Shown: piece by piece, positions 2,161 to 62,507 of the stretch | How positions within the stretch are numbered: the stretch's first letter is position 1 | How the letters are laid out: the number at the start of each line of letters is the position of its first letter | DNA from: Deltaproteobacteria bacterium | GTDB lineage: Bacteria > Myxococcota_A > Polyangia > HGW-17 | DNA: 64,000 nt | Reading direction: 5' to 3' | NCBI GenBank assembly: GCA_016937155.1 | Contig: JAFGWM010000038.1 | Coordinates: forward strand, 1-64,000 | Position numbers and translations under genes: made by a program | The notes under the pieces: model-generated | Databases searched by the model: none | The model's input: the letters and a program-made list of their open reading frames with translations, nothing else | What the model was told of the DNA's origin: nothing

Positions 2161-2203
2161 AACTTCCCTGTAATTATTTCTAAAGGTTACTTACCTGAAG
2201 TGA

Positions 2204-4678: not shown

Positions 4679-4816
4679 AGCTGATATGATAGCCATATGA
4701 TATTTTTCGGTCAACTCAATTTGTATTTGTCCCCATCAGGAAATACATGTTCATCTGTAGTGGTTTGCATTACTTTGATTTGTAGTGTACCTTTCGCTGA
4801 GGAAGGAGATTTATAT

Positions 4817-7324
4817 ATGTTTAGATATAACACACAGATAGCCATTGCAGCACTCCTGATGCTTCTTGCAGGCAGCTGTGAAAAAAAGAATGAAAAAGCA
4901 GATAAACCGGAAAAAACTTCGGAAAAAATATCCTCTACACCCCAGAAAAAATGGCCCGTTGCAGTAAAATTATGGTCAAGGGAACTTTCCACATATGCTT
5001 TCAGTATTATGAATAACAGTAAGTATGTATATGGATTCGGATTCAGAAAAGGGAAAAAAAGTTTCAGACCGAAGGGACAGTTTTTACTGGATGCCCAGAC
5101 TGGAATTACCAAGTGGTTCAGAAAACGCAATCCGGGTATGTTCGGATGGGCTCATCCCGACGGTGTTAATGCCAGTCTGAATGGTGATCAGGTAATATTC
5201 ACAACCCGTAGAAGGCAGATAACTTCACTGGATACAACTGCAGGAAAGTTAATAAAGGGCATAAAAAGCAGCGCAGGTTTCATAGATCTGGGAGATCGAC
5301 TTTTTGTGGCGGATAATCCTCCCTATTTTCTTTCCAGAGATGATGGGAAAAAAGAATTCATTCCACCATTAAAGCAAACCGTGGAAAGTATTCCGGTGAA
5401 AATATCCAGAAAGTTCAAACCCAGAAACGCAAATGGAACAATTCTTCTTAGAACCGTTGATGGAACATTAAGGGGTATTGATTCCCTGACAGGTAAAGAG
5501 TTGTGGACTTTCATTGAAAAAATTGATGATCGTGATTATGCACTGGATATCCCTGTCAGCAAAAGTACTGCCTTGATTCCAACTGTTTATCCATCCACAC
5601 TTCCATCCTCTGAAATCAGCGTTTACAACGGAGAATCAGTAAATAAGGTTAAAATTCCAGGGCTGTTTATTGCCAGAAAAACCCCTGTTCTTTATAAAAA
5701 CATTCTCAGTTGTTTTTCGAGACTGTCCTGGGGAGGAATTCTTTTAAATGGTATTGATGTGGAGACCGGAAAAATCAGATATTCTGTAGAGGTACCTTCT
5801 GATACATGCAGCATTGTTTCCGGTATCGTCAGTTGCCGGTATGCATCCACTCTCAATATATATGACCAAATGACCGGAAAAATGACAAAAACACTCCAGT
5901 ATTCATCAAGAATACGTTTCCTGGCCAGAAAAGGAAAATTCATCACCATACAACTGAATACCGGCAGATACCATATTTTGTCACTTCCTGATGGCAAAGA
6001 ATTATGGAAGGGCGAAATTAAAATAAAGGAGATGAAAACAACTCTGAAGAAAATGGTGTGGTCTGGTGGTGATCGTATAGGTCTGGTGGTTAAAACTACC
6101 CATCCAAGGCAGGATAGGCTTAACCGGATTTATCTTCACCTGTTTTCTCTGGCTATGAATTTTGCCGGAACAAACATACAGCTTGGAAAAGTTCCCGAAA
6201 AAACCTTCATAAGTTCCACTTCAAGCGGTAAGGAGATTCCAGTTAATTTTCCAGTATGGTATACAGAAAACAGGATTTTTTCTGCTCTGGATTCAAATGT
6301 TATGGCCATTAATCCTGAAACAGGATTGAGAACCGGTGGATTCACACTTCCAGGGAAAACCACTTATCAGGTTTCCCTTATCCATAAGAATTCTGATGTT
6401 GCTGTACTTAAAAAAGGTAATTTCCTCGTTGGTATTTCCGGTCAGCCACGTGTAGTATGGCAAAAATATATTAAAAACAAGGAAGTAAGTTATGCCAGCG
6501 ACAGACATGTTATCATAAGAGGAGATAAATCATCGGTAATCTATAACACTAAAACAGGGACTGAAATTTCAAATCCTTTCGATAAATTCGACTCTGCCAT
6601 CCTGACAAGCAGCTGGGGAAACGAATTCAGGGCGGTTACAGACAAGGGTCAGAAAATTTATTCAAACGGTGCAGTTAAAGATGGTAAACTGCCAGTATTC
6701 ACTACAAGTACAGGTAAATATGAGCTAAGTATAAACCACGTTTATGACAAACCACAAGGAAAGGGCAGCTGGACTGCCCTGGATTCTGCCACAGGTAAAG
6801 TGAAGTGGAAATTCACATATAAGGAAAGTAGAGGAGATGTTGGAAGTGCCGGAAATATTGGAGAAATTCCCGTAGCACATACATCACTGAATCCTCCCAT
6901 GTGGCTTTTTGCCACGGATAAAGCATTTGGTGTGCCAGGTCCCGCTGGCAAATGCATTTATTTTATAAGCCCGGAAAATGGTAAAACACTGAAAACCGTG
7001 TGTTTTTATCGTCTCGGTTCAAGACCTGTAAGTATTCCCTCTACTCCCTGGCTTGTTTTCACAGCAACAGGCGCCGCTTATATCCCAGGTGGAAAACCTG
7101 TGGGTGAAAATCCTCGTGATGAGGGTATTTTAAGTGTATGGGTTATAAATACCGACGACTGGAGTTTTAATAAAATAATAGAAAATTCAGAAGGACACAG
7201 TATGTATGGACCGGGAAATTTCACTACAAAAAATGATCCTCTGATTTTTACTGTTTTCACGGAAAAACTCTTTATCAAAAAATCCAGCCTCGAAGCATGG
7301 AAAATTAACTGGGATTTAAAATGA
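4817..7324 (+). CDS. PQQ-like beta-propeller lipoprotein
   Basis: ATG at 4817 preceded by GGAAGGAG; lipobox LLAGSC; repeated LTGKELW / TGKIRYS / TGKVKWKFTY PQQ-type blades. Confidence 0.75.
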   Translation: MFRYNTQIAIAALLMLLAGSCEKKNEKADKPEKTSEKISSTPQKKWPVAVKLWSRELSTYAFSIMNNSKYVYGFGFRKGKKSFRPKGQFLLDAQTGITKWFRKRNPGMFGWAHPDGVNASLNGDQVIFTTRRRQITSLDTTAGKLIKGIKSSAGFIDLGDRLFVADNPPYFLSRDDGKKEFIPPLKQTVESIPVKISRKFKPRNANGTILLRTVDGTLRGIDSLTGKELWTFIEKIDDRDYALDIPVSKSTALIPTVYPSTLPSSEISVYNGESVNKVKIPGLFIARKTPVLYKNILSCFSRLSWGGILLNGIDVETGKIRYSVEVPSDTCSIVSGIVSCRYASTLNIYDQMTGKMTKTLQYSSRIRFLARKGKFITIQLNTGRYHILSLPDGKELWKGEIKIKEMKTTLKKMVWSGGDRIGLVVKTTHPRQDRLNRIYLHLFSLAMNFAGTNIQLGKVPEKTFISSTSSGKEIPVNFPVWYTENRIFSALDSNVMAINPETGLRTGGFTLPGKTTYQVSLIHKNSDVAVLKKGNFLVGISGQPRVVWQKYIKNKEVSYASDRHVIIRGDKSSVIYNTKTGTEISNPFDKFDSAILTSSWGNEFRAVTDKGQKIYSNGAVKDGKLPVFTTSTGKYELSINHVYDKPQGKGSWTALDSATGKVKWKFTYKESRGDVGSAGNIGEIPVAHTSLNPPMWLFATDKAFGVPGPAGKCIYFISPENGKTLKTVCFYRLGSRPVSIPSTPWLVFTATGAAYIPGGKPVGENPRDEGILSVWVINTDDWSFNKIIENSEGHSMYGPGNFTTKNDPLIFTVFTEKLFIKKSSLEAWKINWDLK

Positions 7325-7347
7325 TTGAGACTCGCAATAATTTCAGC

Positions 7348-7376
7348 TTGATCTTTTAGGTTTCTGAATTTATATA
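7348..7376 (+). promoter_or_regulatory. Candidate sigma70 promoter of the tRNA-tRNA-SRP RNA unit
   Basis: TTGATC (7348-7353), 17 nt, TATATA (7371-7376), about 40 nt upstream of the first tRNA. Confidence 0.5.
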
Positions 7377-7415
7377 TCTATGTCTTAGCGGGAGGTATGC
7401 TTCCTTCCAACTTCT

Positions 7416-7502
7416 GGAGAGATGTCCGAGAGGTCGAAGGAGCCTGACTCGAAATCAGGTGTACGGGCAACCGTACCAAGGGTTCGAATCCCTTTCTCTC
7501 CG
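7416..7502 (+). tRNA. tRNA-Ser(CGA)
   Basis: Acceptor stem GGAGAGA/TCTCTCC, long variable arm, TTCGAATCC T-loop, anticodon loop ctCGAaa. Confidence 0.95.
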
Positions 7503-7516
7503 CTATGATTTGCTCT

Positions 7517-7604
<88 letters not shown>

Positions 7605-7605
7605 A

Positions 7606-7706
7606 CAGCCCTTGAGGCTTCAGGTGACGATTTGCCTGTGAATCCGCCAGGTCCGGAAGGAAGCAACGGTAGCTTGACAATCGGGTGCCTGAAGCCTCAA
7701 GGGCTG
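7606..7706 (+). ncRNA. ffs: Bacterial small signal recognition particle RNA (4.5S)
   Basis: Hallmark domain IV sequence CCAGGTCCGGAAGGAAGCA; long terminal stem CAGCCCTTGAGGCTTCAGG...CCTGAAGCCTCAAGGGCTG. Confidence 0.95.
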
Positions 7707-7746
7707 ATTTGTTTTTATATTACTTTTTCTTTGATGGGTTGTTGCA

Positions 7747-9582
7747 GTGTCATATGTTGTATTAGCCAGAAGATACCGACCACAAACTTTCGATGAAATC
7801 GTTGGACAGCATCATATTGTAAAAATCCTTACCAATGCAATAAATTCCGGTCGTATTCATCATGCTTTTCTTTTTACAGGAGCCAGAGGAACAGGTAAAA
7901 CCAGTTCAGCTAGACTTTTAGCTAAGGCACTGAACTGTGTGAACGGACCCACCGCCATACCGTGTAATATTTGTTCAAACTGTATTGATATCACAGATGG
8001 CAAAAATGTTGATGTACTTGAAATTGATGGTGCTACAAATACCGGTGTTGACAGTGTCCGTGCCCTTAGGGAAGATATAAGATATCTGCCTTCTTCCTGT
8101 CGGTATCGAATTATTATTATCGACGAAGTTCATATGCTCACAACCAGTGCGTTTAATGCGCTGCTCAAAACTCTGGAAGAGCCACCCCCTCATGTAATAT
8201 TTATTTTTGCCACTACTGAGCCCCATAAAATTCCTGCAACAATTCTTTCCAGAGTTCAAAGATTTGATTTTCATCGTGTGGAAACTGATGAGCTATCCTC
8301 TCATATCAGTTCTATTCTTAAAAAGGAACATTTTGAAATCACCCCTGAGGCCTGTCAGATTATTGCTGTCCAGGGTGAAGGCAGTGTACGTGATTCACTC
8401 AGTATTCTGGATCAGGTACTTGCTCAGCATACAGATGGCACAATTTCCGCTGATGAAGTCAGAAATGTCCTAGGAATCAGCGATCGTGAAACCCTTATTT
8501 CTCTTGGTGAAGTGCTTTTATCCAGAAACATCCCTTTATTGCTTAAAATGATTCAGGATTTATTCATTAATGGTGCCGATGTGGCTAATCTCACTAAGTC
8601 TCTTATAGGCCAGTTGCGTGACTTTCTGGTGGTAAAGGCTGCCCCTGAATCTGCCCACTTGCTTACGCAAAACAGCATTTCCGAACTTAAACGTATTTCT
8701 GAACTGGTTCAATCATTTGAAGTGACACATATTCATCATCTGCAATTGAGACTTTTCGGTGCAAGTGAACACATTGCCCGTTCTCATTCACCAAAAGTAG
8801 CTCTTGAAATGATTCTATTGGATTTATGTCTGAGTGAACCTCTTCTTCCGATTGAAAAAATCGCAAGTATTGTAAAAAAACTACCATCAACTAACATCAC
8901 ACTAAATCCCGGCAGTGCGGAAGTTTCCACTTTGGGTAGTGAACCATATTCTCCCAGAGTTTCACACTCTATTATTTCAAAGGAAAATGTGGACGTTACT
9001 CCTCAGTATAATAGCGAAGCCCCTAAGATTAGCCCAAAACAGATTCTTGAAGAAATTGTAAAAAACAGTTCTGGCAACGAAACTGAAACTAAAAACACTG
9101 TAAAAACCGTAGTGGATTCCTCTGATACCCCACCTGAAATTGTAACTCTCCCCAAATGGATGGCTATAGTTGAGAAAATTAAATCGGATCGTCCTACTAT
9201 TGGTTTTCAACTTGAAGAGGCCAAATTCTCCAGTTGCATTTTTAAAAATCATAGACTTAATATTTCTCTGATTCTTCCGGGAATGAAGGACGACGACTAT
9301 ATATTTTCCAGTCTCATGAATAATAAGGATCTCATAAATAAACTGGTTTCAACTGAACTTTCATGTAACACTGTTATTTCATTTAAAACTGGAGAATTAA
9401 AAAATACTCATCTTCCTGCTGGAATTCCTGTAAAGAGCGTCAGAGATATCAAGGAACAGCAAAATGCAGTCAAAAAGCGGCAGATTGAAGAGGATATCCT
9501 TGGAAATCCATTTGTACGTACACTACTTGATGAATTTCAGGGTGAAGTAATGAAATTTAATGTAACTGATGAAAATGAATAA
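7747..9582 (+). CDS. dnaX: DNA polymerase III subunit gamma/tau (GTG start)
   Basis: SYVVLARRYRPQTFDEIVGQHHIVKIL, GARGTGKTSSARLLAKALNC, zinc Cys module, TTEPHKIPATILSRVQRFDF; SRP RNA-dnaX-ybaB-recR synteny. Confidence 0.97.
   Translation: MSYVVLARRYRPQTFDEIVGQHHIVKILTNAINSGRIHHAFLFTGARGTGKTSSARLLAKALNCVNGPTAIPCNICSNCIDITDGKNVDVLEIDGATNTGVDSVRALREDIRYLPSSCRYRIIIIDEVHMLTTSAFNALLKTLEEPPPHVIFIFATTEPHKIPATILSRVQRFDFHRVETDELSSHISSILKKEHFEITPEACQIIAVQGEGSVRDSLSILDQVLAQHTDGTISADEVRNVLGISDRETLISLGEVLLSRNIPLLLKMIQDLFINGADVANLTKSLIGQLRDFLVVKAAPESAHLLTQNSISELKRISELVQSFEVTHIHHLQLRLFGASEHIARSHSPKVALEMILLDLCLSEPLLPIEKIASIVKKLPSTNITLNPGSAEVSTLGSEPYSPRVSHSIISKENVDVTPQYNSEAPKISPKQILEEIVKNSSGNETETKNTVKTVVDSSDTPPEIVTLPKWMAIVEKIKSDRPTIGFQLEEAKFSSCIFKNHRLNISLILPGMKDDDYIFSSLMNNKDLINKLVSTELSCNTVISFKTGELKNTHLPAGIPVKSVRDIKEQQNAVKKRQIEEDILGNPFVRTLLDEFQGEVMKFNVTDENE
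8874..8880 (+). other. Candidate programmed -1 frameshift or transcriptional slippage site (A AAA AAA) in dnaX
   Basis: GTA AAA AAA CTA in frame; the -1 frame reads AAA AAA ACT ACC ATC AAC TAA, stop at 8892-8894. Confidence 0.65.
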
Positions 9583-9602
9583 TAAATTATGGAGATTTAG
9601 AA

Positions 9603-9953
9603 ATGAATGATTTTGATTTTGGACAACTTGGTCAGTTTCTTCCTGATCTTGGAGAAATTAATAATAAACTCGCTAGAGTATCAGAAAGAGTCGCTAGAGA
9701 ACCAGTGACTGCTGAAAGTGGTGGTGGTATGGTTAGTATAGTAGGAACTGCTGATATGAGAGTAAAATCAGTAAAACTTGATAATAATCTCCTGTCATTG
9801 GAAGATAATGAAATGACTAGTGATCTTATTACCGCTGCATTTAATCAACTTATTGAAAAATGTAAGGAACGCAGTGCAGAAATTGCCACTGAAGAACTTG
9901 GTCCTTTAGCTTCTATGATGCAAAATTCTCCTTTGACTTCACTCATCAGGTAA
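9603..9953 (+). CDS. ybaB: YbaB/EbfC family nucleoid-associated protein
   Basis: Small acidic protein with VKSVKLDNNLLSLEDNEMTSDLITAAFNQLIEK, between dnaX and recR. Confidence 0.88.
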   Translation: MNDFDFGQLGQFLPDLGEINNKLARVSERVAREPVTAESGGGMVSIVGTADMRVKSVKLDNNLLSLEDNEMTSDLITAAFNQLIEKCKERSAEIATEELGPLASMMQNSPLTSLIR

Positions 9954-9957
9954 AACA

Positions 9958-10560
9958 ATGATACTCGCTCCTCTGGACCAACTGGTGGATGCTCTTAGTG
10001 CACTTCCCGGTATCGGGAAAAAAACCGCCAGACGTCTTGCATTCTTTCTTGTGGACTCAGATACTGAGATTTCCGGTAAAATAGTTGATGCAATTAATCA
10101 ATGTAATAATCTTTTAGGGAAATGCCCTCAGTGCGGATTGTACAGTATCAAAAATCAGAATTGTTCTATCTGCTCCAGTGAAAACCGTAACCGAAATATC
10201 ATATGTGTTGTAAGCCGACCCCAGGATGTTATTGCTATCGAGTCCAGTCATGGATTTAACGGAGTATATCACATTCTTGGAGGAAATATTGCACCTCTTG
10301 ATGGTATCGGCCCTGAAGATCTGACAATTGACAGACTTTTAGATCGTATATCCTCTGATAATGTAAATGAACTCATTTTTGCCCTTGATAATACTGTTGA
10401 CGGAGAAACCACCTCCCACTATCTTGCAGCAGTAGTCCCACAAAACGTTACCATATCGAGAATTGCTGCAGGTATTCCTTTTGGAGGTGAACTGGAATAC
10501 ACTGACGGCGTCACGATATCAAGAGCTCTCGAATTCAGAACCCAGTACAAACGACTTTAA
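9958..10560 (+). CDS. recR: Recombination protein RecR
   Basis: LPGIGKKTARRLAFFL HhH, C4 zinc finger CPQCGLYSIKNQNCSIC, Toprim region and Walker-like C-terminus. Confidence 0.97.
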   Translation: MILAPLDQLVDALSALPGIGKKTARRLAFFLVDSDTEISGKIVDAINQCNNLLGKCPQCGLYSIKNQNCSICSSENRNRNIICVVSRPQDVIAIESSHGFNGVYHILGGNIAPLDGIGPEDLTIDRLLDRISSDNVNELIFALDNTVDGETTSHYLAAVVPQNVTISRIAAGIPFGGELEYTDGVTISRALEFRTQYKRL

Positions 10561-10707
10561 TCTATAAAACTGATTTTCTCACTGTAATAAATCGACACAA
10601 TTCCAAGTACAGATAATGGATATAGACTTTAATAGATACAGATTTACTTGAATTTTGTTGGAAAATATCTAAGAAGAGAGAGAAAACAGACTACAACAGT
10701 GGGATTA

Positions 10708-11265
10708 TCAACCACCTCTGGTTTTAACAATCGCAAAACTGAATCTTACATAGCGTGCTTTTACACAAGTTTTGAGAACCTGATCAACCAGTTTCCATGG
10801 TATTTTCTGGTCAGCAGCTATGAATGCCTCTCCCTGGAATTTACCGGCAGACTTATCCTGTTTTGCTTCAATTTCCTTATTACGGAGTTCATCAAGGCGC
10901 TCTTTAAGATTTTTGATAGTAAATCCGTCAGGAGCATCCTGTGAAGATATTGTGTTATTGGTAATGGTAACTACTTTTTTACCCTTAACAACAATACTCG
11001 TACGTGAAATCTGAATATCCACGCATTCTGACATGGAGGACATTGAATCTGACTTCGGAACCATCAATTCGTTTTTCTTCTGGGGAACCTGCATTGGATC
11101 TGATCCATAGCTCTTCAGAAGGAAGATGAGTATAATGGTCAACGCGTCCATCAGAGATGTAATATTGAATGCTGATTCTTCAGCTTCCTTACCACGCCTC
11201 TCAGCCTTTTTTTCAGCCAGCATTTTGGCAATTTTGGCTTCTTCTGGGGACATATCCTGGGACAT
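10708..11265 (-). CDS. ExbD/TolR-family biopolymer transport protein (TolR-1)
   Basis: FNITSLMDALTIILIFLLKSYG: single TM with the conserved TM Asp. Confidence 0.85.
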   Translation of the reverse strand: MSQDMSPEEAKIAKMLAEKKAERRGKEAEESAFNITSLMDALTIILIFLLKSYGSDPMQVPQKKNELMVPKSDSMSSMSECVDIQISRTSIVVKGKKVVTITNNTISSQDAPDGFTIKNLKERLDELRNKEIEAKQDKSAGKFQGEAFIAADQKIPWKLVDQVLKTCVKARYVRFSFAIVKTRGG

Positions 11266-11326
11266 GCTACTATCTCCTTAAAAAGTCTGAATACTCAAAT
11301 GAGTATCTACTAAATATTAAAACGTT

Positions 11327-11950
11327 CTACCGACCGAGTGAGGCCAGCGGGAACATACAGGCTCCGGAAAGTTCCCAGTCTTTTTTACCCTGCGGCTTTT
11401 TGAAAACGCAGGCAAGGGAACCACTAAGTCCATCAATTTCGCCCTTTGCTTCTGGAGGAAGTTCACGGGTTGCATCCAGTGTTTCAATAACAGTTTCATA
11501 AGGAATCTGATCCTGTGGTCTCACAGTAACCTTACGCCAATCGGTAAACATCTGGGCTTCCGGATTCTTGTTCTGCTTGTAGAACGGTTTGTAATACTTT
11601 GTGTAGATAAATTTTCTTAAAGCAGCAGAGGGATAAAGTTTTTTCCCTGCACTGTGAGTAACACTCAGGCAGGGCTGTCCGTTGTTCTTACGTTCTGGAC
11701 AGGCACTACCCTTTTTGGTGGAAATATAATACCCTTCCTGAGTGATATCAACAACAAGACCCAGGGCCTTACTTTCCTTGTTATCCTTATTCTTTTTAGC
11801 TCTTCCTTTTCTCGGAGTATCCACGAGAATAATACCGATCTGAATGAACTGCGCACTCAGAAGAAGGAAAGGAATAAGAAGACACAGAAGGTTCATAATA
11901 GGCATCAAGTTGATGTCTTCCATTTTATCGTCAACAGTTTTCCTGGCCAT
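11327..11950 (-). CDS. ExbD/TolR-family protein (TolR-2), Asn replacing the conserved TM Asp
   Basis: DINLMPIMNLLCLLIPFLLLSAQFIQIGIIL aligns by eye with the N-x-x-P-[LM]-[VI]-D-x-x-x-x-L-L TolR motif; located between tolQ and TolR-1. Confidence 0.8.
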   Translation of the reverse strand: MARKTVDDKMEDINLMPIMNLLCLLIPFLLLSAQFIQIGIILVDTPRKGRAKKNKDNKESKALGLVVDITQEGYYISTKKGSACPERKNNGQPCLSVTHSAGKKLYPSAALRKFIYTKYYKPFYKQNKNPEAQMFTDWRKVTVRPQDQIPYETVIETLDATRELPPEAKGEIDGLSGSLACVFKKPQGKKDWELSGACMFPLASLGR

Positions 11951-11999
11951 GGTTCAGTCCTTTTAAAAGGGTTTATAACCTGCTACTTCCAATGAATGA

Positions 12000-12635
12000 T
12001 TATCTGGCTCTGCTTAATCTTCTGGCAAGAAGATTGTCAAGCTTTGTAGAGAACAGCTCAACATCATCCATGATTTTCTTAGTGAAACTCATGAGAAGAA
12101 GGTGTGCAGTCAGACAGGGAACCGCAACAATAAGACCGAATGCAGTGGTATTCATAGCAACTGCAATACCGTGCGAAAGAACGGCTGATCTGTTTTCAGG
12201 AGTTGCTGTACCGAGAGCATCAAATGCCTGAATCATACCAAGGATTGTTCCAAGAAGACCACACAGTGTAGCGATGTTGGCAACACCCTGCAGAGCTGGG
12301 GTTCTTTTGGTAACTTCAGGTGTTACTTCCAGTTTAGCCTCTTCAATGGCTGCGCTGACAGCAAGAGGACCTTCAGCATATTTGGTCAGTCCGGCTTTAA
12401 TAACGCGGGGAAGTGCTGCAGTAGGAGCAGCGTTACAGAGTTTGATGGCCTGATCAATGTTATTTGCTCCAACGAGCTGCATAACCTGAGCCATAAAAGC
12501 TTCTGCGTTAATGTTGTACCTGAAAAGAAGAAAAATTGACCTCTCGATGATAATGGCTATTCCGAATGCTGATGCAAACAAAATAACGTACATAAATTCG
12601 CCACCATCGACAAATGCCTTTGCAAGACCGCTCAT
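12000..12635 (-). CDS. MotA/TolQ/ExbB proton channel family protein
   Basis: NIATLCGLLGTILGMIQAFDAL and AVAMNTTAFGLIVAVPCLTAH conserved TM segments. Confidence 0.92.
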   Translation of the reverse strand: MSGLAKAFVDGGEFMYVILFASAFGIAIIIERSIFLLFRYNINAEAFMAQVMQLVGANNIDQAIKLCNAAPTAALPRVIKAGLTKYAEGPLAVSAAIEEAKLEVTPEVTKRTPALQGVANIATLCGLLGTILGMIQAFDALGTATPENRSAVLSHGIAVAMNTTAFGLIVAVPCLTAHLLLMSFTKKIMDDVELFSTKLDNLLARRLSRAR

Positions 12636-12701
12636 AATGCTCTTTCCTCCGTTGGGCTTAAAAGCCGGTTAAAAAAATACTCATACCAAAATCGTTATGC
12701 G

Positions 12702-12730
12702 AAGATATAACAAAATTATCTTAAACTCAA
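12702..12730 (-). promoter_or_regulatory. Candidate internal promoter for tolQ-tolR-tolR
   Basis: Minus strand TTGAGT (12730-12725), 17 nt, TATCTT (12707-12702), in the 194-bp gap upstream of tolQ. Confidence 0.4.
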
Positions 12731-12829
12731 GAATATCCTGTATGCAAAATCATTTTTTGTAATACTGGATAATTGCAAAGGAATATAACCTATTTCAAAC
12801 TAGGTTAAAACAAAAAAAAAAGATAATTT

Positions 12830-13075
12830 CTAAAAAGGCCCTAAAAATAAAGACTCATGAATTTTATTAAGAAATTCCTTAAAGAATCGAGGATCCTTTT
12901 CATCCCATTTCCAGAAACCACCATATTCCCAGGCTCTGTATATTTCAAACTTTGGTTTTGGGATCTGAACCTCAATTACATTAGGACCCTGACTTGCAGC
13001 CTTTTTATCCTGACCAGATGCAGGAAAGGCCGTGAATAAAACAGCCAGGGTGGATACTACAAGGATTTTTTTCAT
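12830..13075 (-). CDS. Small (81 aa) exported protein of the TolQR/TPR operon
   Basis: Signal peptide MKKILVVSTLAVLFTAFPASG; ATGA-type overlap with the upstream TPR lipoprotein gene. Confidence 0.65.
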   Translation of the reverse strand: MKKILVVSTLAVLFTAFPASGQDKKAASQGPNVIEVQIPKPKFEIYRAWEYGGFWKWDEKDPRFFKEFLNKIHESLFLGPF

Positions 13076-14220
13076 TTTCCACCTCTGCTTTTTGCCAATT
13101 CCATTCTTTCCTTCGCCTGTTTTATCCATTTGTTAAGTCTGGATACAAGCTCCTTATCATATCTTCTCTTTTTTCGTTCTTCATTTCTGTAAATAACTGC
13201 ATGCTTTATTGCATATTCCGCTCTTTCAACTGTGGTAAGATTACCAACCCTGGCAATATCGTCCCACATACTATATATCAGAGCAAGATTATAGTGGCAG
13301 GTCATACATCTCACACTCAGAGCACCCAGAACATGTCTGAACTGTTTTTCAGCTTCCATATATTTTAAAGAATAAAAATACGCCACGCCCAGATTTACAC
13401 TGAATTTCCAGTTTTTCCTCCATTCATTACCACCATACTTAAGTACATTTTCATAACTGAGTAAGGCCTGTTTGTATTCACCTTTTTCAAGGAGGAGGTT
13501 TCCGTACTGAAAAAGAGCCTCTGAATTATCCTTCAAACTGGAGTGACCAAATTCTTTTTCAGCTTTTCCTTTTTCAAAAATACCTGCAAGGGTCAAACCC
13601 TTGCTTTCATAGTTTCTGGCCTGATGCAGATAATATTTACCCATGTACAGGTGCCAGATGGGTTTAACTTTAGTGGGAGGCTTTGATTTGCTTCTAAGAA
13701 CTTCAATGCGGTTAAGCACATTTCTCATTTTTTCAAAATTTCCGCGTGCAAGCTCCATTTCCACAATCAACAGCATCGCTTCATAATTCTGGTAATCAAG
13801 CTTTAGAACCGCCTTAATATTATCCAGAGCCTCGACAAAGCTTTTTTCGTTGCCCTTTTTAACAAAGGCTTTTGCCATAAATATTTTTTCTTTGATTTCC
13901 TGAGCAGTTTTTTCTTTCTTTGAGAGAATTTTGCCTGAAGGTTTCTTTTTACCGGAATCAGATTTGACATCTGATTGTTTTTTATCAGTATCCTTTGAAT
14001 CCTTACTGGTTTTATCCTGAACCAGATTGTTCTTATCTTCGTTTCCGGAATTACTTTCCTTCAAAACTTTTTTATTATCAGAATCCGTCTTTTTATTTGA
14101 AGTGTCAGTGGATTTGCCATCCTTTTTTTCGCTGACAGGAACCGTCTTGCCCTTCTTTTTCTTTGAACATCCGGGACTTACCACAAAACCTATAATTAAT
14201 AAAATTAGTATCTTTTTCAT
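13072..14220 (-). CDS. TPR lipoprotein with Lys/Asp/Ser-rich linker (GltE/AglT-like by layout)
   Basis: Lipobox VVSPGC, low-complexity linker, TPR-like helices (EALFQYGNLLLEKGEYKQALLSYENVLKYGG). Confidence 0.75.
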   Translation of the reverse strand: MKKILILLIIGFVVSPGCSKKKKGKTVPVSEKKDGKSTDTSNKKTDSDNKKVLKESNSGNEDKNNLVQDKTSKDSKDTDKKQSDVKSDSGKKKPSGKILSKKEKTAQEIKEKIFMAKAFVKKGNEKSFVEALDNIKAVLKLDYQNYEAMLLIVEMELARGNFEKMRNVLNRIEVLRSKSKPPTKVKPIWHLYMGKYYLHQARNYESKGLTLAGIFEKGKAEKEFGHSSLKDNSEALFQYGNLLLEKGEYKQALLSYENVLKYGGNEWRKNWKFSVNLGVAYFYSLKYMEAEKQFRHVLGALSVRCMTCHYNLALIYSMWDDIARVGNLTTVERAEYAIKHAVIYRNEERKKRRYDKELVSRLNKWIKQAKERMELAKSRGGK

Positions 14221-14230
14221 TTTTAACTTC

Positions 14231-17200
14231 TTAATGGCTCATCTTAACCATTTTAGGTTTAAACACCCGCTGGTATTTTTTTGAACCTTCAAACTGCCGA
14301 TAATCCTCAAAAGCCTCTTCGATAAGATTACTACTGATTTTTTCAGAAGTCACAATGGAATGAAATTCCTTGAAAGTTTTATTATATTCGTCAATCAACC
14401 GGTCCTGAGGAACCATCTCAACAGACTCAGTTGTTTTACCTTTTGGTATACTGTAACTGCGTTTATAAAACATCTTGCGTTTGTAATCGAGATAACACTG
14501 ATCAGCAATTTTAGCGGGTTTCCCTGCACAGTTGCTTTCCTTAAGTTTAGCGGCTCTATCCTCTTCCAGTTCTGCCTGACTCAGTTTTTTCAAAAAAGGT
14601 GCTTTGGCAAATATATCAATACCCTGAATTATCATCTTAAGTTTCAGAGCCATAAGATTAGCCTTTATCAGAGCCACCTGACTTCTGATATAACCTTTTT
14701 GTTCAGTATACCAACTGTAACCTTTTGCCAGACCATCAAGACTTCCACCTCGAACAAGTGTCAGTACAACAGCGTCAGCACCTGCAAGCATTGTTGATAA
14801 AGTAGCCATCTGTCCCAATACCTGAATAATTGGAACACAGTCATTGACCTGAAGATCTTTTTTAGTCTTATAAAGTTTATCGATATCCTTAATAGTTTTC
14901 TTTAGGGTAGCGATAATTGGAAGATTCTGATCCTTATAAATTTTTTCAATATTTTTAATTCCATTTTTTGATTTAGGAACAAAATCCTTGAAGAATTTCT
15001 TCACCATTTCAGGAACAGATTTGCTCCAGTCTTTTCCAAGATTCTCCATATCCTTAACCAGCTTTTTAATATCCTTACGATCAGCTAAAAACTGTTGAAT
15101 TGCTGGTTGAAATCCAACTTTTTGAGCCAGCGGCCAGAACTTCGGGTATTTCTTTGTAAATTTCTGATATACCTTATAGTGCTTTAGAAGATCCTTTTGG
15201 CTCAATTTTGCTCTTGCTGCAGGGGCGAGATTCTGTAGAGCAACTGCAAACTCCTGTATTTCTTTAACATATGCATTCTGTGTATCTGCAAGTTTCTTTT
15301 TCAGATCCTCCAGTTTTTTGTTAAGTTTTTCCCCTTTACCGGAAAGTTTTGTCTGAAGTATTTTAAACTGCAGTTGTGAATCCTCAAATGCATCAATTTC
15401 AGGAGTTGATGTCCCCTTAAAGGGATTGTCAACTTTCTTATATTCTTCTGTAACATACTGAATAAGTGCTTCACCATAGTTTACAACCGCATAACCGGGA
15501 TTGAGGGAAGGTGTAGCTCTAACCCCCTTATCATAAAGCTTTTTATATTTTTTAAGAAGTTCAGTGAATTTTTCTCTGGCTTTTTCTCTGTTAGTTGCAC
15601 TCCCTGATTTTGTCATCAGATACTTGTAAATACTTGCTCTCTGATAGGTGAGGAAAAGCCTTTTTTTCCACATAGCCTCATACTGTTTGGATGTTGTAAT
15701 TTTCAGGGAGTCGCCAGTTCCAGATTCTTTAAAAATTCGGGAAAGCTTCACATAGTAATCAAGTGCCGTTTCGAGATCAGTCAGTTTCTGCAAAACATTT
15801 GATAAATCTTTTTCACTTCCATCCTTACCCAGTGCTTTATTAAGGTAGACCTGATAAAGCATTTCTTTATAGTAAATAAATTTATCAGTTACAGTTGCAC
15901 TGGTACATTTGCCTCCAGGACAGTTCCAGTAAACGATGTAGTATTTATCCAGTTTATCCTGCTTCAAACCCATCTGTGCCGCTAAATCCTTAAAGGGGTT
16001 AGCGTCTCCAACCGAAAACTTTTTAGCATACATTCTTTTGACTCTGGAATATTCTTCCATGAGTTTTTCCATGAGACTTACGGTTTCGCGGAAAAATTTA
16101 TCACCATTTGATCTGTAAATATCAAGTTTCTTCTCTTCGGATATAAGTCTGAAATTACTTTCCTGTGCTGTTTTAACCCGTTTTCCATCCCTTAGCCGCC
16201 ACACACCCTTTCTGGCGAGTTCATCCCACATTTTTAATGCACGATCCTCATTGAAACTTTTGGTGTATGCATCAGCCAACTGGTAGAAAACAATCTCCTT
16301 GTAACCTTCTCTGTCTGCCACCTCGAATATTTTTTCCTGTTTTCTGATACTTTCCAGAATTTCAATAGCACCAATAAAATCACCAAGTTCTTTTTTACAT
16401 GTGTATATGTTCCAGTAGATACCAAAAAGATTGCTGTAATACTCTTTCTCTTCTTTCTTTGGTGGTTTTCTGGATTCCACTTTCTTTTTGAGAGTCAGAT
16501 AGTATGTGAGAGCAGATTTCCATTTGTCGGGATCATTTTTCCCTTTATCCTTGGAACTATTGGCTTCCGCGAATACTTTCTCAGTGGTTTTAACAAGCTC
16601 GCTGAGTTCAAGTTTCGCTATCATGCTCATCAACTCACGATGCTTTTCGCCACCGCCACATTTTTTCTTCTCCAGACCACTTATTACTGAATCCCTTTCC
16701 TTTTTGAATTTTTCATCTGTCAGGGCATCTGTCTTTTGATGTCTGTATGTGAGAAACAGATCATAGCTTGCGTAGTATGCAGTTTCATGAGAGCAGTATT
16801 TTTCCAGAATCTGATCATAAGTTTTTCTGGCCAGATCAACATCCTGATAATGCAGAAAAATACGGGCAATTTTATATAAAAACAGCGGAGAGTTTGAATC
16901 TTCCGGGTAAAGTTTCATGTAAATCTGAGCATCTTTTATATAATTTTGATAAGACTCAGGTATTTCTTTTTTAACATAAGTTATTTTACCCTTTGCATCA
17001 TCTTTTTTAGGGTCAAAAGGATATGGAGGATCTTTATATGCCAGTTTATCCATATAAATATTATTCAGAATAACAGCTGCATTCTTTCTCCAGTCACTCC
17101 CAAGGTGGCTGTCCCTGACTTTTCTGCCCCAGTCAAGACCTGAATAAATCCTTTTTTTACGTTCAGCCTCATTGGGTGCAAGATCAATGATGTAGTATTC

Positions 17201-19345
17201 AGCTGACTTATCCATAAGATCATTATAAAAATTCATAATCTGAACCATGGCGCCATACTGATAGATACTATTGGGATAGTCCTTAATAATTCCCTTAAAA
17301 TACTTTACAGCTTCATTAAAGGCATTGTCAGCCTTACGTCTCAGTATTTCCTTTTCCGCACCGGTAGCTTTTTTAAAACGATCGAACAGATCCTTTGCCT
17401 TTGATGCAAGTGTTATACCTGTATACATCAAGGCAAAACTCTTGATGTAGGTAATATTCATCCTCAATTCATCTATGGTAACGGTGGGAATTTTTACTTT
17501 TTTGGCAGCATTGAAAGTCAGAAACTTCTGATGACTGGTAAGAAATCTATCGGTTTCATCTGTATTAAATACGGTGTTCAACGCAAACTGATATAGATCC
17601 TTGCGTTTTTTCTCCCATTCGGAAATTTTCTTCCTTACCTCATTTTTATCCCTTTCGGTTTTCAATTCCAGAAGGAGATTTTTATTCTTGGCCACCATAA
17701 TATCAATGAGTTCTTTCATCTTCCAGAACACTGCGGGTTTATCTGGGTTATATTTCCAGTTTCCCTCGGTATCCATCTTACGGAAAATGTAGTCATACAG
17801 GTTCCATGCAAAAAGATAGTCCTCCTCACTGCGCTGATAAGCCTTGCCTTCTTCAATACCCTTAAAGAAATCAGCTATTCCATACCATATTCTCTTCACA
17901 TGTGGTTCGTTCTCCCTTCCCTTGTAAAAAGTCACCAGCTTTTTAACCGGACATTTATTTTTACACTGAACTGGAAAGGGGTCTACCCAACTGTATTTTT
18001 TCTGATCATCTATGTTATCGACTTTTTCATCCTGAAAAAGAAAGCCAATATATTTAATGGCTTCCTTATGGGGTGAATTCAGATCCTTATTTTGCCCCAT
18101 AACAATAACCTGATCAAAAAGTTTCATTGCCAGAGCAGGATTAAGTTCATTCTGATAAAGCATAAGTCCTGCAAAATAAACTATATATCCTCTGGTACTC
18201 AGGTTTTTGTATTCAGGTCCAAGGGCTCTCTTGTATGCACTCAATGCTGACCATTTTGTAATCGCATAATTGAACAGGTGAATATTCATTGACTGTTCAT
18301 CAGTCATGGTTGCATCCACTTTTTCAAATTTTATTCTTTTTGTGGAAAGATATTTACCCAGAGTAGCCCAGGCTGTACCAATAAATTCAAGGCCACCCTT
18401 TACCGGTTTACATTTCTGAAACAGGTCAAATGGAATTTTTCCTGGAAACTCTTTGATAGCCCATCCCTTATAAGCAGTAAGAGAATCAGAAGCAAGAATC
18501 AACTTTCCTCTTGATACAAGTGTTTCATTAAAATCATCCTTAAACGGGTTGTATCCCCAGTTTGAACACACTGCAGCAAGAGAAACCTTTGCTGGAAGTT
18601 CCTGATTTGGATCCTGCGTTGAAAAAGGAGGGTTTTCATAAATCCTCGCAAGAAGGTGAAAAGCACTGCCCAGAGCCCGGAATTTCGGGTAGCCGCTTAT
18701 CAGTTTCCTCAAATTCTGTTCAGATTTCTTTCGGTAAAAGTCAACACCTAAAGTGGAATCAGCTACTCTGACAACACCATTTGAGAGCTTATGGGCAGCC
18801 TCAAGGGTATCCCTGTAATCCTCATCAAACTCAAGAATTTTTCCTGTTTTCTCATCTTCCTTTTCAGATCTGAGAAAAAGTTCCTCAGCTATTTCATGAT
18901 AAATTACAGCAGTTCTCCATAAAAGTTCGGGAGTCCACATGGGATCCTTGAGTTTTTCAAATTCACTGAGGCGGGTCTCCAACATTTTGAGGAGCTTCGC
19001 CCTCTCGATCATATCCTGAACCTTTGCGGATTTTGTATCCTTTGACAGCTTTGATCTCAGAGCAACTTCCTCATTTCTCCTGGTTCTTTTGATCATGTAC
19101 GTAGTAAAATCGCTGTTAAATCTGATAGCCTTCCGAAATGTTTTGTAGTCTTTTCTAAGATCATTTATTTCTTTAACTATATCAGTGGTTTCAAATTTTG
19201 GTTCATTTGAAACATTTTTCTTATCATCGGGTATCTTTTTTATAATTTTTTCACGGGTTTTTCCTGAAGTTCTCTTTCCCTGAGAATACACATTTCCCGA
19301 TTGCATAGTAAAAACCAGGGCTGCAAATAAAAAAACTACTCTCAT
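14231..19345 (-). CDS. Giant (1704 aa) exported TPR-repeat protein
   Basis: Signal peptide; TPR-like segments such as NAFNEAVKYFKGIIKDYPNSIYQYGAMVQIMNFY and PLFLYKIARIFLHYQDVDLARKTYDQILEKY; 4-nt overlap with upstream gene. Confidence 0.75.
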   Translation of the reverse strand: MRVVFLFAALVFTMQSGNVYSQGKRTSGKTREKIIKKIPDDKKNVSNEPKFETTDIVKEINDLRKDYKTFRKAIRFNSDFTTYMIKRTRRNEEVALRSKLSKDTKSAKVQDMIERAKLLKMLETRLSEFEKLKDPMWTPELLWRTAVIYHEIAEELFLRSEKEDEKTGKILEFDEDYRDTLEAAHKLSNGVVRVADSTLGVDFYRKKSEQNLRKLISGYPKFRALGSAFHLLARIYENPPFSTQDPNQELPAKVSLAAVCSNWGYNPFKDDFNETLVSRGKLILASDSLTAYKGWAIKEFPGKIPFDLFQKCKPVKGGLEFIGTAWATLGKYLSTKRIKFEKVDATMTDEQSMNIHLFNYAITKWSALSAYKRALGPEYKNLSTRGYIVYFAGLMLYQNELNPALAMKLFDQVIVMGQNKDLNSPHKEAIKYIGFLFQDEKVDNIDDQKKYSWVDPFPVQCKNKCPVKKLVTFYKGRENEPHVKRIWYGIADFFKGIEEGKAYQRSEEDYLFAWNLYDYIFRKMDTEGNWKYNPDKPAVFWKMKELIDIMVAKNKNLLLELKTERDKNEVRKKISEWEKKRKDLYQFALNTVFNTDETDRFLTSHQKFLTFNAAKKVKIPTVTIDELRMNITYIKSFALMYTGITLASKAKDLFDRFKKATGAEKEILRRKADNAFNEAVKYFKGIIKDYPNSIYQYGAMVQIMNFYNDLMDKSAEYYIIDLAPNEAERKKRIYSGLDWGRKVRDSHLGSDWRKNAAVILNNIYMDKLAYKDPPYPFDPKKDDAKGKITYVKKEIPESYQNYIKDAQIYMKLYPEDSNSPLFLYKIARIFLHYQDVDLARKTYDQILEKYCSHETAYYASYDLFLTYRHQKTDALTDEKFKKERDSVISGLEKKKCGGGEKHRELMSMIAKLELSELVKTTEKVFAEANSSKDKGKNDPDKWKSALTYYLTLKKKVESRKPPKKEEKEYYSNLFGIYWNIYTCKKELGDFIGAIEILESIRKQEKIFEVADREGYKEIVFYQLADAYTKSFNEDRALKMWDELARKGVWRLRDGKRVKTAQESNFRLISEEKKLDIYRSNGDKFFRETVSLMEKLMEEYSRVKRMYAKKFSVGDANPFKDLAAQMGLKQDKLDKYYIVYWNCPGGKCTSATVTDKFIYYKEMLYQVYLNKALGKDGSEKDLSNVLQKLTDLETALDYYVKLSRIFKESGTGDSLKITTSKQYEAMWKKRLFLTYQRASIYKYLMTKSGSATNREKAREKFTELLKKYKKLYDKGVRATPSLNPGYAVVNYGEALIQYVTEEYKKVDNPFKGTSTPEIDAFEDSQLQFKILQTKLSGKGEKLNKKLEDLKKKLADTQNAYVKEIQEFAVALQNLAPAARAKLSQKDLLKHYKVYQKFTKKYPKFWPLAQKVGFQPAIQQFLADRKDIKKLVKDMENLGKDWSKSVPEMVKKFFKDFVPKSKNGIKNIEKIYKDQNLPIIATLKKTIKDIDKLYKTKKDLQVNDCVPIIQVLGQMATLSTMLAGADAVVLTLVRGGSLDGLAKGYSWYTEQKGYIRSQVALIKANLMALKLKMIIQGIDIFAKAPFLKKLSQAELEEDRAAKLKESNCAGKPAKIADQCYLDYKRKMFYKRSYSIPKGKTTESVEMVPQDRLIDEYNKTFKEFHSIVTSEKISSNLIEEAFEDYRQFEGSKKYQRVFKPKMVKMSH

Positions 19346-21999
19346 TTGCTGCCTCCAACTTTAGCATTTTTTCCAGTTTCTTTTTTGTTACCTGAAGTCT
19401 TTTTGGAAACTGCTTTTTTCTCCTCGAAAGGATCCGCGAGTTCGCCTTTTCCTATTTTGAAAGTTGGTTGCATTATTTCTCCAAAACGGGAAGACAGATT
19501 TCGGGTGATTTTATTGTTCTGATCCATCAGGCGGCTCCATTTTTTTCTGGTGAGAGAGCGCTTGGTCCAGGATACATCTACAATACCAATGTCAGCTTCC
19601 ATAACTATTGCCTGAAATTTATCAGCTATGTTTTTAATACTGTCCTTTGATACCACTCTGGAAAAATATTCACTGCGTTTAGAATAATTTCCATACCGCT
19701 CCTGATACATTTTTATCTTGCTTTCCTCATCAGCCACTTTGGTTCTGATATCATCTATTTTTTTAACAGCAATATTATCAATTTTACGGTTAACAGCATC
19801 CATTCTTGAGTCAATCTGAAGGGATGTTTTCATCAGCGCACCAAGATTGTCTATTACATTTTTAACTTCACCGGTAAGAGACAGGGATGAACGCTCAATT
19901 AATTGAAATTCCTTTTCAACTATACTCCTGTACTTCAATCTGAGGTTCTTCTCCATTTTCATATCGGAATCATCAACCCCCACCTCAAGACTGGCATCAA
20001 CAACAGCAGACCTGATTTTTTCAGCCATCTTAATTGTGAGTTTCACATGTTCAGCTTCTGCCCTGAGTTTGTCTACCATATCAGGTAACTTTGCTTTTTT
20101 CTTTTTATCCAGATTCAAATAATATTTATATAAAGCCTCAATCTGTTCCTGCTTCAATTTCAGATCCAGTTTCAAACCATCAATGGATGCTGTCATTTTA
20201 TCATAAAGTTTACGCTTCGCTCTCAATCGTTTCTCAAGAGAGTCAGTACTTTTAGGCATATCTGAAATTTTCTTGTTCAGAGCCAGTCGTTCCTTCTGAA
20301 GTGAACTCAGTCTGGTCATATCGGATGATGTAAGCTGGGATGAAATTTTTCCGGTTATTTCAGCTAGAATCTTCTTTCTCAACTGCATATTTCTAAGTTC
20401 CAGTTCGTATGTTTTTTTGCGCATATCACTCAGAAGTGGAAAAGCACCAATTCTACTGGTGGATTGAAGCCTCCTTTTTACTATCTGAAGAGTACTTTTT
20501 GCCTCTGAAAGATCCTTGCCTATAACTTCAATGTCATCAGAAATAATAACTGCTTTCATAAAATTCTGATCATTGTGAAATATTGGAACCATTTCTGGTG
20601 GAATATCATACTCTACTTTAAATATAGATTTTGTGGATGTTTTCTTTTTGCCGGATGAATCCTTAGCCTCTTTTTTCTTGGTAATCTGATCGAAAAGGGC
20701 TTCAGGATCAATATCTTTTTTCAGAAGCTGTTGAATCTTGTTATAAACTCTCTTGTACTGAAGACTTGTTTTATTGAAGCTTTTATTTGCTTCCAGCCAT
20801 TTTTCACCCCGTACATTCAGATAACCAAGAAGAATCTTTGCTCTTGGAAGAAATACACTGTTTTTATTTCTGACTTCCATAATAGCCAGAGTCTGAACGG
20901 CTTTCATCACTTCGCCTTCACGAACATAGACCCAACTCATTTCATAAAGACTATCCTCATAATATTTGGATTTAGGATCCACCATGCGGTACCACTTCAC
21001 AGATTCCCCGGTCTGACCAAGCTCATAGAAAATACGGCCTATTGCCATCACAGCTAGAGTCTGTACTTCCTTCTCAACACTGGTTTTAGGTTCAAACCAT
21101 ATGGTTTTTTCAGGGAATTTTTTTACAATATCAGATACATTTTTGTTAATACTAACCAGTGTAAAGCGTTTGATTGCCTCAAACAGTATAAGCTCCCTCA
21201 TTTCACTTGGAAAAGCGGTGAACTGTTCTAAAAGGACAACCTTTCCATCTCTTATAAAGCTTGTGGCTCCTGTCTTGGCAAGCCTCACAAGAGTTGCCCC
21301 ACTGTAGTATATTGCCTGAGAATACAGAGGAGGAAATTTAGTCTTTCCCTTCTCATCAGTAAAGGGTTTGAAAAGATCAAAATATTTCAGAGCCAATTGA
21401 AGTTTCTGAATTACAAAAGTTTCGTTACGTTTCTCTCCGGATTTATGAAATTCTTTATCCGCAAGAAAATAATTATATTTTCCAAGAGCATAACGTACTT
21501 CCCATGAGTTTTTCATTTCAGGCATATTTTCAATAATGGAGATGAGTTTTTCTATTCCCTTGAATCCTCTGACTTTCATTGAAATTTCAAGCAGTCTTTT
21601 GATGGCTTTACTTTTTAATGACATTGATGCCTTCATCGTGAGAATTCTGAAATAATTATCTGCAGCCACAAGATAATTTCCGCTTAGATACATTGACTCA
21701 CTGTAGTGAAACGTTGCCTCACCACCCACCTGGGGATCATTTGTCAGTGACATAAAAAGAGCAGCTGCATCCTGAGGACGGTTGTTCTTCAGAAGATAAA
21801 CACCATTAAGCAGACGCTGAACAGTGTTATATTTCTTTCCCATAACTATCTTGGAAGCTGTATTTATTACTGTCTCAACTCTTTTAAGACTTGAATCAAT
21901 GATCCTGATTTCATCTGAGTAATCAGTCTTGCCCTGTCCGGTTGCTTTAACAGGTACAGACAGTAGCATGAACATAATAATAGAAATGCCCTTTTTCAT
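19342..21999 (-). CDS. Exported TPR plus coiled-coil protein (885 aa)
   Basis: Signal peptide, TPR-like helices in the N-terminal half, heptad-rich C-terminal half. Confidence 0.7.
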   Translation of the reverse strand: MKKGISIIMFMLLSVPVKATGQGKTDYSDEIRIIDSSLKRVETVINTASKIVMGKKYNTVQRLLNGVYLLKNNRPQDAAALFMSLTNDPQVGGEATFHYSESMYLSGNYLVAADNYFRILTMKASMSLKSKAIKRLLEISMKVRGFKGIEKLISIIENMPEMKNSWEVRYALGKYNYFLADKEFHKSGEKRNETFVIQKLQLALKYFDLFKPFTDEKGKTKFPPLYSQAIYYSGATLVRLAKTGATSFIRDGKVVLLEQFTAFPSEMRELILFEAIKRFTLVSINKNVSDIVKKFPEKTIWFEPKTSVEKEVQTLAVMAIGRIFYELGQTGESVKWYRMVDPKSKYYEDSLYEMSWVYVREGEVMKAVQTLAIMEVRNKNSVFLPRAKILLGYLNVRGEKWLEANKSFNKTSLQYKRVYNKIQQLLKKDIDPEALFDQITKKKEAKDSSGKKKTSTKSIFKVEYDIPPEMVPIFHNDQNFMKAVIISDDIEVIGKDLSEAKSTLQIVKRRLQSTSRIGAFPLLSDMRKKTYELELRNMQLRKKILAEITGKISSQLTSSDMTRLSSLQKERLALNKKISDMPKSTDSLEKRLRAKRKLYDKMTASIDGLKLDLKLKQEQIEALYKYYLNLDKKKKAKLPDMVDKLRAEAEHVKLTIKMAEKIRSAVVDASLEVGVDDSDMKMEKNLRLKYRSIVEKEFQLIERSSLSLTGEVKNVIDNLGALMKTSLQIDSRMDAVNRKIDNIAVKKIDDIRTKVADEESKIKMYQERYGNYSKRSEYFSRVVSKDSIKNIADKFQAIVMEADIGIVDVSWTKRSLTRKKWSRLMDQNNKITRNLSSRFGEIMQPTFKIGKGELADPFEEKKAVSKKTSGNKKETGKNAKVGGSK

Positions 22000-22015
22000 G
22001 GCTTAAATCCTGAAA

Positions 22016-22924
22016 TTATTTAGAAGATTTAGATTTACCCGATTTCCCGGTACTTTTCTTACTGGAAACAAGGGGTCTGACTTCCAGTTTAAATTTGATA
22101 GTGGGTCTTTCATCCAGAGGAGTTGTCATATTTCCTTTTTCTTTTCCGATTACTGTAAGTACATACAACTTACCTGGTTCTACAGAAAAACTATAACTGT
22201 TCTTAACTTCCCACTTCCACTCTTTCACATATCTGAAAAGGCCGTACCCGTTACCAAGATAAGAAATAAAAACCCTTACCCTTTTGTTCCCTGGAGTTAC
22301 ATGATCACTGACAACAGGAATATCTTTCTTGGAAAGTGCAACCTTGTCAGCTTTAATAACATCACTGTAGGTTTTAATAGGATTTCCATCGAGAAAATAT
22401 CTGAGTCTCACAAGTCTGTAGACTCCACCCATCTCATTTCGATGTTTGATTATAATCTTGGCACCGCCAAGAGTTTCCTTTTGATCCGTCATTGCTTCCT
22501 TAAGCAACTGAAGCCTGTATTTACTTGATGTTACTTTATTTTTTAAATCCTCAACCTGTTCTGCCAGTTCCCTGAGTTTCAGTTCTGTCTTACTCAGTTT
22601 AGGCTCCTTTGTTTTTGTGTTAGTAGGTAAAACATCTCTTTTCACATCCCTGCCAACGGTAACAGGTGTGTCCTTTTTTTCATTTGAAACTGGTACTGAT
22701 GTGTCAGAGGGAGTTTTTTTCCCGGCACCAGGATCAGCAACAGGAGTTTTCTTAGATGCATCAGTTGCAGAATTATTCTTAGGCGGATCTTTGGATTTTG
22801 TCGTTTCCGTTTTTGCCGGTTCTTTTGTTTTTTCATTGGCTCCGTTGGGCTTCTTACCCTGAGCCATAACTGTCCAACTTATTGATATTATAGTTATAAA
22901 AATAATTTTACTTAAGTTTTTCAT
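22016..22924 (-). CDS. Exported protein with Lys/Pro/Thr-rich linker, first gene of the TolQR/TPR operon
   Basis: Signal peptide MKNLSKIIFITIISISWTVMA, KTKEPAKTETTKSKDPPKN linker, coiled coil and beta-rich C-terminus. Confidence 0.65.
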   Translation of the reverse strand: MKNLSKIIFITIISISWTVMAQGKKPNGANEKTKEPAKTETTKSKDPPKNNSATDASKKTPVADPGAGKKTPSDTSVPVSNEKKDTPVTVGRDVKRDVLPTNTKTKEPKLSKTELKLRELAEQVEDLKNKVTSSKYRLQLLKEAMTDQKETLGGAKIIIKHRNEMGGVYRLVRLRYFLDGNPIKTYSDVIKADKVALSKKDIPVVSDHVTPGNKRVRVFISYLGNGYGLFRYVKEWKWEVKNSYSFSVEPGKLYVLTVIGKEKGNMTTPLDERPTIKFKLEVRPLVSSKKSTGKSGKSKSSK

Positions 22925-62303: not shown

Positions 62304-62507
62304 CATAAACTCCATCAGCAGGATTCTATGTCATTAATTCCGTAAGTCAAAAATACGATGGATAAATCTTTCGGTGACCTTTGTTCTTCTGTGCGTTTGC
62401 AGTTCCTTTTGGGAATTACTTTCTTCAGGTATGGATTCATAATGAAATTTGGTATTGGAAAATACGGTCTTACGTGAGATAATCCGCCGCTGATAAGGAG
62501 TAAAATA

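Follow-up and report, generated by a model that had tools for sequence, protein, structure and literature searches.

We found that the window (the whole stretch of 64,000 nucleotides analyzed here, from an uncultured, low-GC deltaproteobacterium related to Myxococcota MAGs) carries an operon for an envelope motor in which one axle subunit, TolR2, appears from its sequence to have naturally lost the residue whose loss kills the Myxococcus motor, as have most motors of its kind. In MotB, TolR, ExbD and AglQ/AglS, the axle helix has a conserved Asp that is considered to be the proton site. The absence of this Asp from TolR2 and the wide conservation of this loss were observed directly, and the new point lies in such an Asp-less subunit at the AglQ position, although a prior description may exist outside the open-access literature that we searched. 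The initial annotation of this DNA had missed the lost Asp, as well as the unlinked GltG gene and the match to an mglBA-linked cluster.

The Agl/Glt-type operon of the window

Eight co-directional minus-strand ORFs were recovered at positions 10708-22924, each exactly where the initial annotation had placed it and with both of its 4-nt gene overlaps (19342-19345 and 13072-13075). The transcription order is KP302, GltC-like, GltD-like, GltE-like lipoprotein, GltF-like, TolQ (AglR), TolR2 (AglQ position) and TolR1 (AglS position), and the start of the GltF-like gene sits inside an ORF at 12830-13129. The features and the evidence for each are as follows:

22016..22924, minus strand: KP302, 302 aa, first gene of the operon, exported, with Lys/Pro linker, coiled coil and beta-sandwich (ORF, conservation, AlphaFold model)
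19342..21999, minus strand: GltC-like protein of 885 aa, a long form that has a C-terminal coiled coil (NCBIfam NF033756 gliding_GltC)
14231..19345, minus strand: GltD-like periplasmic TPR protein, 1704 aa (position after GltC, phmmer, TPR_6)
13072..14220, minus strand: GltE-like TPR lipoprotein, 382 aa (TPR matches, lipobox, synteny)
12830..13075, minus strand: GltF-like small exported protein, 81 aa, C-terminal ...GPF (position, size and C-terminus as in relatives)
12000..12635, minus strand: TolQ/AglR-type channel subunit, 211 aa (Pfam MotA_ExbB, identity, tree)
11327..11950, minus strand: TolR2, axle subunit at the AglQ position, 207 aa, Asn20 in place of Asp and a new Pro27 in the transmembrane helix (Pfam ExbD, alignments, survey)
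11891..11893, minus strand: TolR2 Asn20 codon, site of AglQ D28 and the ExbD Asp (alignment, survey)
11870..11872, minus strand: TolR2 Pro27 codon (all Asp-less TolR2 copies have this Pro, and all Asp-bearing ones lack it)
10708..11265, minus strand: TolR1, axle subunit at the AglS position, 185 aa, Asp40 kept (Pfam ExbD, survey)
11146..11148, minus strand: TolR1 Asp40 codon, putative sole remaining axle proton site (alignment, survey)

In the same genus and family (G001, G004, G006 and also G002), every gene of the operon was conserved, and the whole gene order was kept at the order level as well (G009, G008), so that this is a maintained operon and not a product of chance. In G002, the GltD-like gene was present as two ORFs (695 and 988 aa; L037:635-5734), reflecting either a split gene or an assembly error. 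The operon is flanked by nucleoside phosphorylase genes on one side and by recR on the other, with ybaB-recR convergent with it; in a Myxococcaceae MAG, recR is found just upstream of mglB. Scans of the operon for ribosome sites and promoters gave signals no more than chance. Elsewhere in the window (61290-62315), a TPR protein had a marginal match to the GltC model (E=0.012), which is probably generic TPR similarity.

The motor part consists of one TolQ and two TolR genes in a contiguous set. Pfam searches identified TolQ as MotA_ExbB (E=1.4e-23) and both TolR1 and TolR2 as ExbD (9e-12 and 2.8e-9, respectively). TolQ was 54-95% identical to the Agl-type TolQ of relatives and retained the conserved Thr residues of TM2 and TM3 (GT motif, T164). 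The predicted structure of TolR2 contained one TM helix and an alpha/beta domain, for which a fold search found no PDB match at E<=0.001, with ExbD domains appearing at E 0.3-1 only. An ordinary Tol-Pal or ExbBD-TonB energizer lying by chance beside TPR genes, as the bare presence of TolQ/TolR domains might suggest, is extremely improbable and such membership was ruled out: in the TolQ tree, the window protein grouped with the Agl-type clade, separately from Tol-Pal and ExbB, the same genome has a separate tolQ-tolR-tolA-tolB locus (contig C14) and separate ExbBD genes (contig C76), and no TolA, TolB, Pal or TonB gene is near the operon. This bears out the earlier view that an ordinary Tol-Pal role was less likely.

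The Glt-like part is best recognized by the 885-aa protein, which matched the NCBIfam gliding_GltC model with E=3.7e-16 over residues 51-459, a score under the curated cut-off, and had matches in 38 of the 39 relatives searched. The earlier description as TPR proteins held for the 1704-aa and 382-aa proteins, with weak but significant Pfam matches (TPR_6 E=7.2e-5 and TPR E=7.5e-7, respectively), and was only marginal for the 885-aa protein. Neither the 382-aa nor the 1704-aa protein had a direct match to the GltE or GltD model, and both were assigned via synteny and chained similarity. The 1704-aa protein matched the GltD-position proteins of class relatives (phmmer E 1e-10 to 8e-16); the 382-aa protein has a lipobox (...VSPGC-SKKKK), and the Archangium gene syntenic with it matched the NCBIfam GltE model (E=1.6e-32). 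The 81-aa protein shares position, size and a C-terminal PF with its counterparts in relatives. Among class relatives, the proteins at these three positions are ~1190, 400-450 and 90-112 aa long, lengths similar to those of GltD, GltE and GltF, and are followed by a GltG (FHA + TonB-like) protein. No GltG gene is present in the window operon; the homologue of this genome lies on contig C30 (L146:9048-10715) and matched a profile of the class-cluster GltG with E=4.4e-65. NCBIfam GltG matches were under the curated cut-off, as with GltC. In the order-level relative G008 (L044), GltG is within the cluster; the order KP302-GltC-D-E-F-TolQ-TolR2-TolR1-(GltG) occurs there and in other relatives.

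KP302 contains a coiled coil (112-149) and a beta-sandwich (155-284), and its AlphaFold model was good for the C-terminal part only. In 19 relatives, its gene preceded the GltC-like gene, and a KP302-based contig search yielded 260 confirmed stretches with this arrangement. A fold search with KP302 gave no PDB match at E<=0.001; the best matches, to Bacteroides fimbrial and transthyretin-like folds, had TM-scores of ~0.2 to the query and were rejected.

By sequence comparison, the operon belongs to the Agl/Glt core-complex family, i.e., a relative of the Myxococcus gliding and spore-coat envelope motor. The proposal of an 'ancestral or variant' Agl/Glt-type motor was upheld as to its type by the GltC match, the TolQ clade and the glt gene order, and 'ancestral' was not.

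Loss of the TolR2 aspartate

The M. xanthus gliding motor has a transmembrane-helix Asp in AglQ as well as in AglS. In the window, alignment revealed Asn20 in TolR2 (...NLMPIMNLLCLLIPFLLL), at the site of AglQ Asp28, and a conserved Asp40 in TolR1. One guide row of this alignment was an E. coli ExbD sequence, and the genome's own TolR and ExbD yielded the same column. In Archangium AglQ (L177), the Asp is exactly at residue 28 and aligned with the window Asn20. In M. xanthus, the aglQ D28N mutation abolished proton conductance and paralyzed the motor (PMC3858216).

Of the 80 TolQ-TolR2-TolR1 triads that we surveyed, most came from the window's phylum and some from elsewhere. More than three-fourths of them (62/80) had a TolR2 without Asp (Asn 51, Ser 6, Ala 3 and Gly 2), and 18 had the Asp, the Asp-less state being the commoner one within the lineage surveyed. 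On the other hand, TolR1 had the Asp in all triads (81 of 81 TolR1 copies). The loss was accompanied by a Pro in the transmembrane helix after the site, which was present in all 64 Asp-less TolR2 copies and in none of the 18 Asp copies; in the window it is Pro27, seven residues past Asn20. At TolQ position 163, 98% of the Asp-less class had Thr, and most members of the Asp class had Asn or Cys. The same combination (Ser and the Pro in TolR2, Asp in TolR1) was found in a gammaproteobacterial TolQ-TolR-TolR cluster on a Vibrio plasmid. In G009 (L038:13840-16440), two TolR2-TolR1 pairs, each with the Asn/Asp pattern, were observed after a single TolQ.

An AU test of a single clade for the Asp-less motors (p about 0.5) rejected neither one clade nor its opposite. 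Among 72 triads in the short stretches fetched, a GltG start was located within ~3 kb downstream of 49 of 54 Asp-less motors versus 2 of 18 Asp/Asp motors, a difference with a Fisher p of 6e-10 when kinship is ignored, and with only 3 independent pairs and a sign-test p of 0.5 otherwise. Since only three independent contrasts remain once kinship is counted, the link between Asp loss and GltG should be regarded as a clade pattern and not as a demonstrated rule.

Proposed mechanism and alternative readings

It seems fairly probable that the operon encodes a PMF-driven motor whose AglQ-AglS axle is asymmetric and has a single proton site, and that this motor pulls a Glt-like envelope complex. In such a system, a 5:2-type inner-membrane motor would be encoded together with the periplasmic/outer-membrane complex that it pulls, and a TolQ (AglR) pentamer would surround a heterodimer of one TolR2 and one TolR1 axle helix. 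Protons would be carried by TolR1 Asp40 alone, TolR2 being permanently neutral (Asn20, with Pro27), and their passage through this single site would turn the ring around the axle. The GltG-type FHA/TonB-like protein from contig C30 would be the likely transducer to KP302, GltC, GltD, GltE and GltF. Force could then reach the cell surface, where the output may be a moving surface polymer or adhesin, or gliding.

Elsewhere in the genome, a second glt set, more canonical, is located on contig C48 (L009:3659-10861), with a GltC of 247.6 bits and GltD- and GltE-like genes, and on contig C85 (L147:8098-10558), with GltG and a CglF-like gene; it has no motor of its own. In total, four ExbD-family and five MotA/TolQ/ExbB-family genes were found, and the window contains the only TolQ-TolR-TolR set, hence the sole Agl-type motor found in this 95% complete MAG. 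Because the second glt set is motorless and the only triad is in the window, the window motor may serve both Glt-like complexes, by analogy with the single M. xanthus Agl motor that serves Glt and Nfs (PMC3858216).

One possible, still tentative, alternative is that this motor is the organism's gliding motor, powering both the window complex and the C48/C85 set with polarity set by MglAB. In addition to the second glt set, the lack of another triad in the genome and the M. xanthus precedent, this reading agrees with the GltC-model matches in 14 of the 14 genomes searched (a stronger copy occurring in nearly all of them) and with an mglB-mglA pair on contig C32 (L266:7441-8521), whose MglA is 82% identical to that of Archangium. 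The GltF-like gene of the window operon corresponds to gltF, one of the group A genes (gltA, B, F, H, I, J and K) of the M. xanthus gliding machinery. However, AglQ Asp28 is needed for gliding in M. xanthus, and another motor may be missing from the assembly of this uncultured organism. Equally tentatively, the role of the motor might be to move or assemble surface polysaccharide, in the way that Agl-Nfs acts in the case of the spore coat. In class relatives, genes for a beta-barrel protein (BBP2_2 1.1e-8) and for Wza-like export (Poly_export E 3e-22 to 4e-19) come after the cluster, which speaks for such a role, whereas the flanks of the window operon contain no polysaccharide genes. In L044, L047 and L052, all of them class relatives, the glt cluster precedes genes for an outer-membrane-like protein and for Wza-like polysaccharide export, and the L044 cluster lies beside obg.

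The main rival to the hetero-axle is a working motor of AglR5 and a homodimer of TolR1 (AglS type), in which the Asp-less TolR2 would be an accessory outside the axle with a part in anchoring, assembling or gating the motor, e.g., via binding to peptidoglycan or Glt proteins. We regard it as rather unlikely. The larger, variable periplasmic domain of TolR2 and its variable site (N, S, A or G), compared with the invariant site of TolR1, would suit an accessory, and the literature lists the homo- or heterodimer state of AglQ/AglS as unresolved (PMC9389320). However, TolR2 retains the whole transmembrane motif N-L-x-P-x-M-N, its state tracks TolQ position 163, as would be expected if its helix lay within the ring, and TolR2 and TolR1 were never parted in the survey. 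Moreover, homodimers of TolR2 would be unable to use protons, and the pairing of a conserved neutral TolR2 with a conserved acidic TolR1 therefore favors the heterodimer. There is about an even chance that Agl-type motors fall into two classes: glt-operon motors with an obligate hetero-axle and one proton site, and free-standing motors, including the M. xanthus gliding motor, that serve multiple complexes and have two. Should this be true, each turn of a 5:2 hetero-axle motor would be predicted to take about 5 protons and to proceed in 72-degree steps.

Comparison with known systems

The co-occurrence of motor and Glt genes in one locus, which the initial annotation had put forward, holds, but the arrangement itself is largely known: a locus uniting aglRQS with gltC, D, E and G was published as a core complex for gammaproteobacteria and Geobacter (Luciano et al., 2011; PMC3169522), and Bdellovibrio clusters were likewise described with the motor (PMC3169522). 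The window operon resembles this core complex in having one TolQ, two TolR and homologues of GltC, GltD and GltE, and differs from it in the unlinked GltG, the presence of KP302 and a GltF-like protein, and the TolR2 without Asp. A Bdellovibrio sp. MAG cluster (L129/L187) also has KP302-GltC-GltD-GltE-AglR-AglQ-AglS in one operon, but with Asp in both TolR proteins.

A cluster in Archangium (mglB-mglA-KP302-GltC-GltD-GltE...GltG; GltC 1.2e-17, GltE 1.6e-32 and GltG 3.9e-49) shares the KP302-GltC-GltD-GltE order and sequence with the window, whereas it includes GltG and its motor is elsewhere. It is probably the G4 cluster of M. xanthus, an equation that leans on the numbers of the mglBA genes, MXAN_1925-1926. 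MXAN_1922 is the GltD of the G4 cluster, whose function is unknown (PMC3169522).

The M. xanthus AglRQS motor has the same three subunits as the window motor. In contrast with the latter, its AglQ has Asp28 (and Archangium AglQ has no transmembrane Pro), and it is a free-standing locus serving two complexes, in gliding and sporulation. The Vibrio alginolyticus plasmid pMBL96 is like the window in its Asp-less TolR2 with Pro and its TolR1 with Asp; however, its TolQ is only 31% identical and its neighbors are CS1-pilus and Ig-like genes. On this mobilizable plasmid (L263, locus 977-16478), the TolQ-TolR-TolR genes lie beside genes for a beta-barrel protein, a CS1 pilus and an Ig-like adhesin. 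A tblastn search of plasmids with the 885-aa GltC-like protein found no match.

Motors in which one axle subunit lacks the Asp and its partner never does form a large natural class and represent a natural experiment on the AglQ/AglS heterodimer and the number of proton sites. Since TolR2 is Asp-less in most of the motors surveyed here, the results obtained with AglQ Asp28 of M. xanthus are not directly transferable to the majority of these Agl-like motors.
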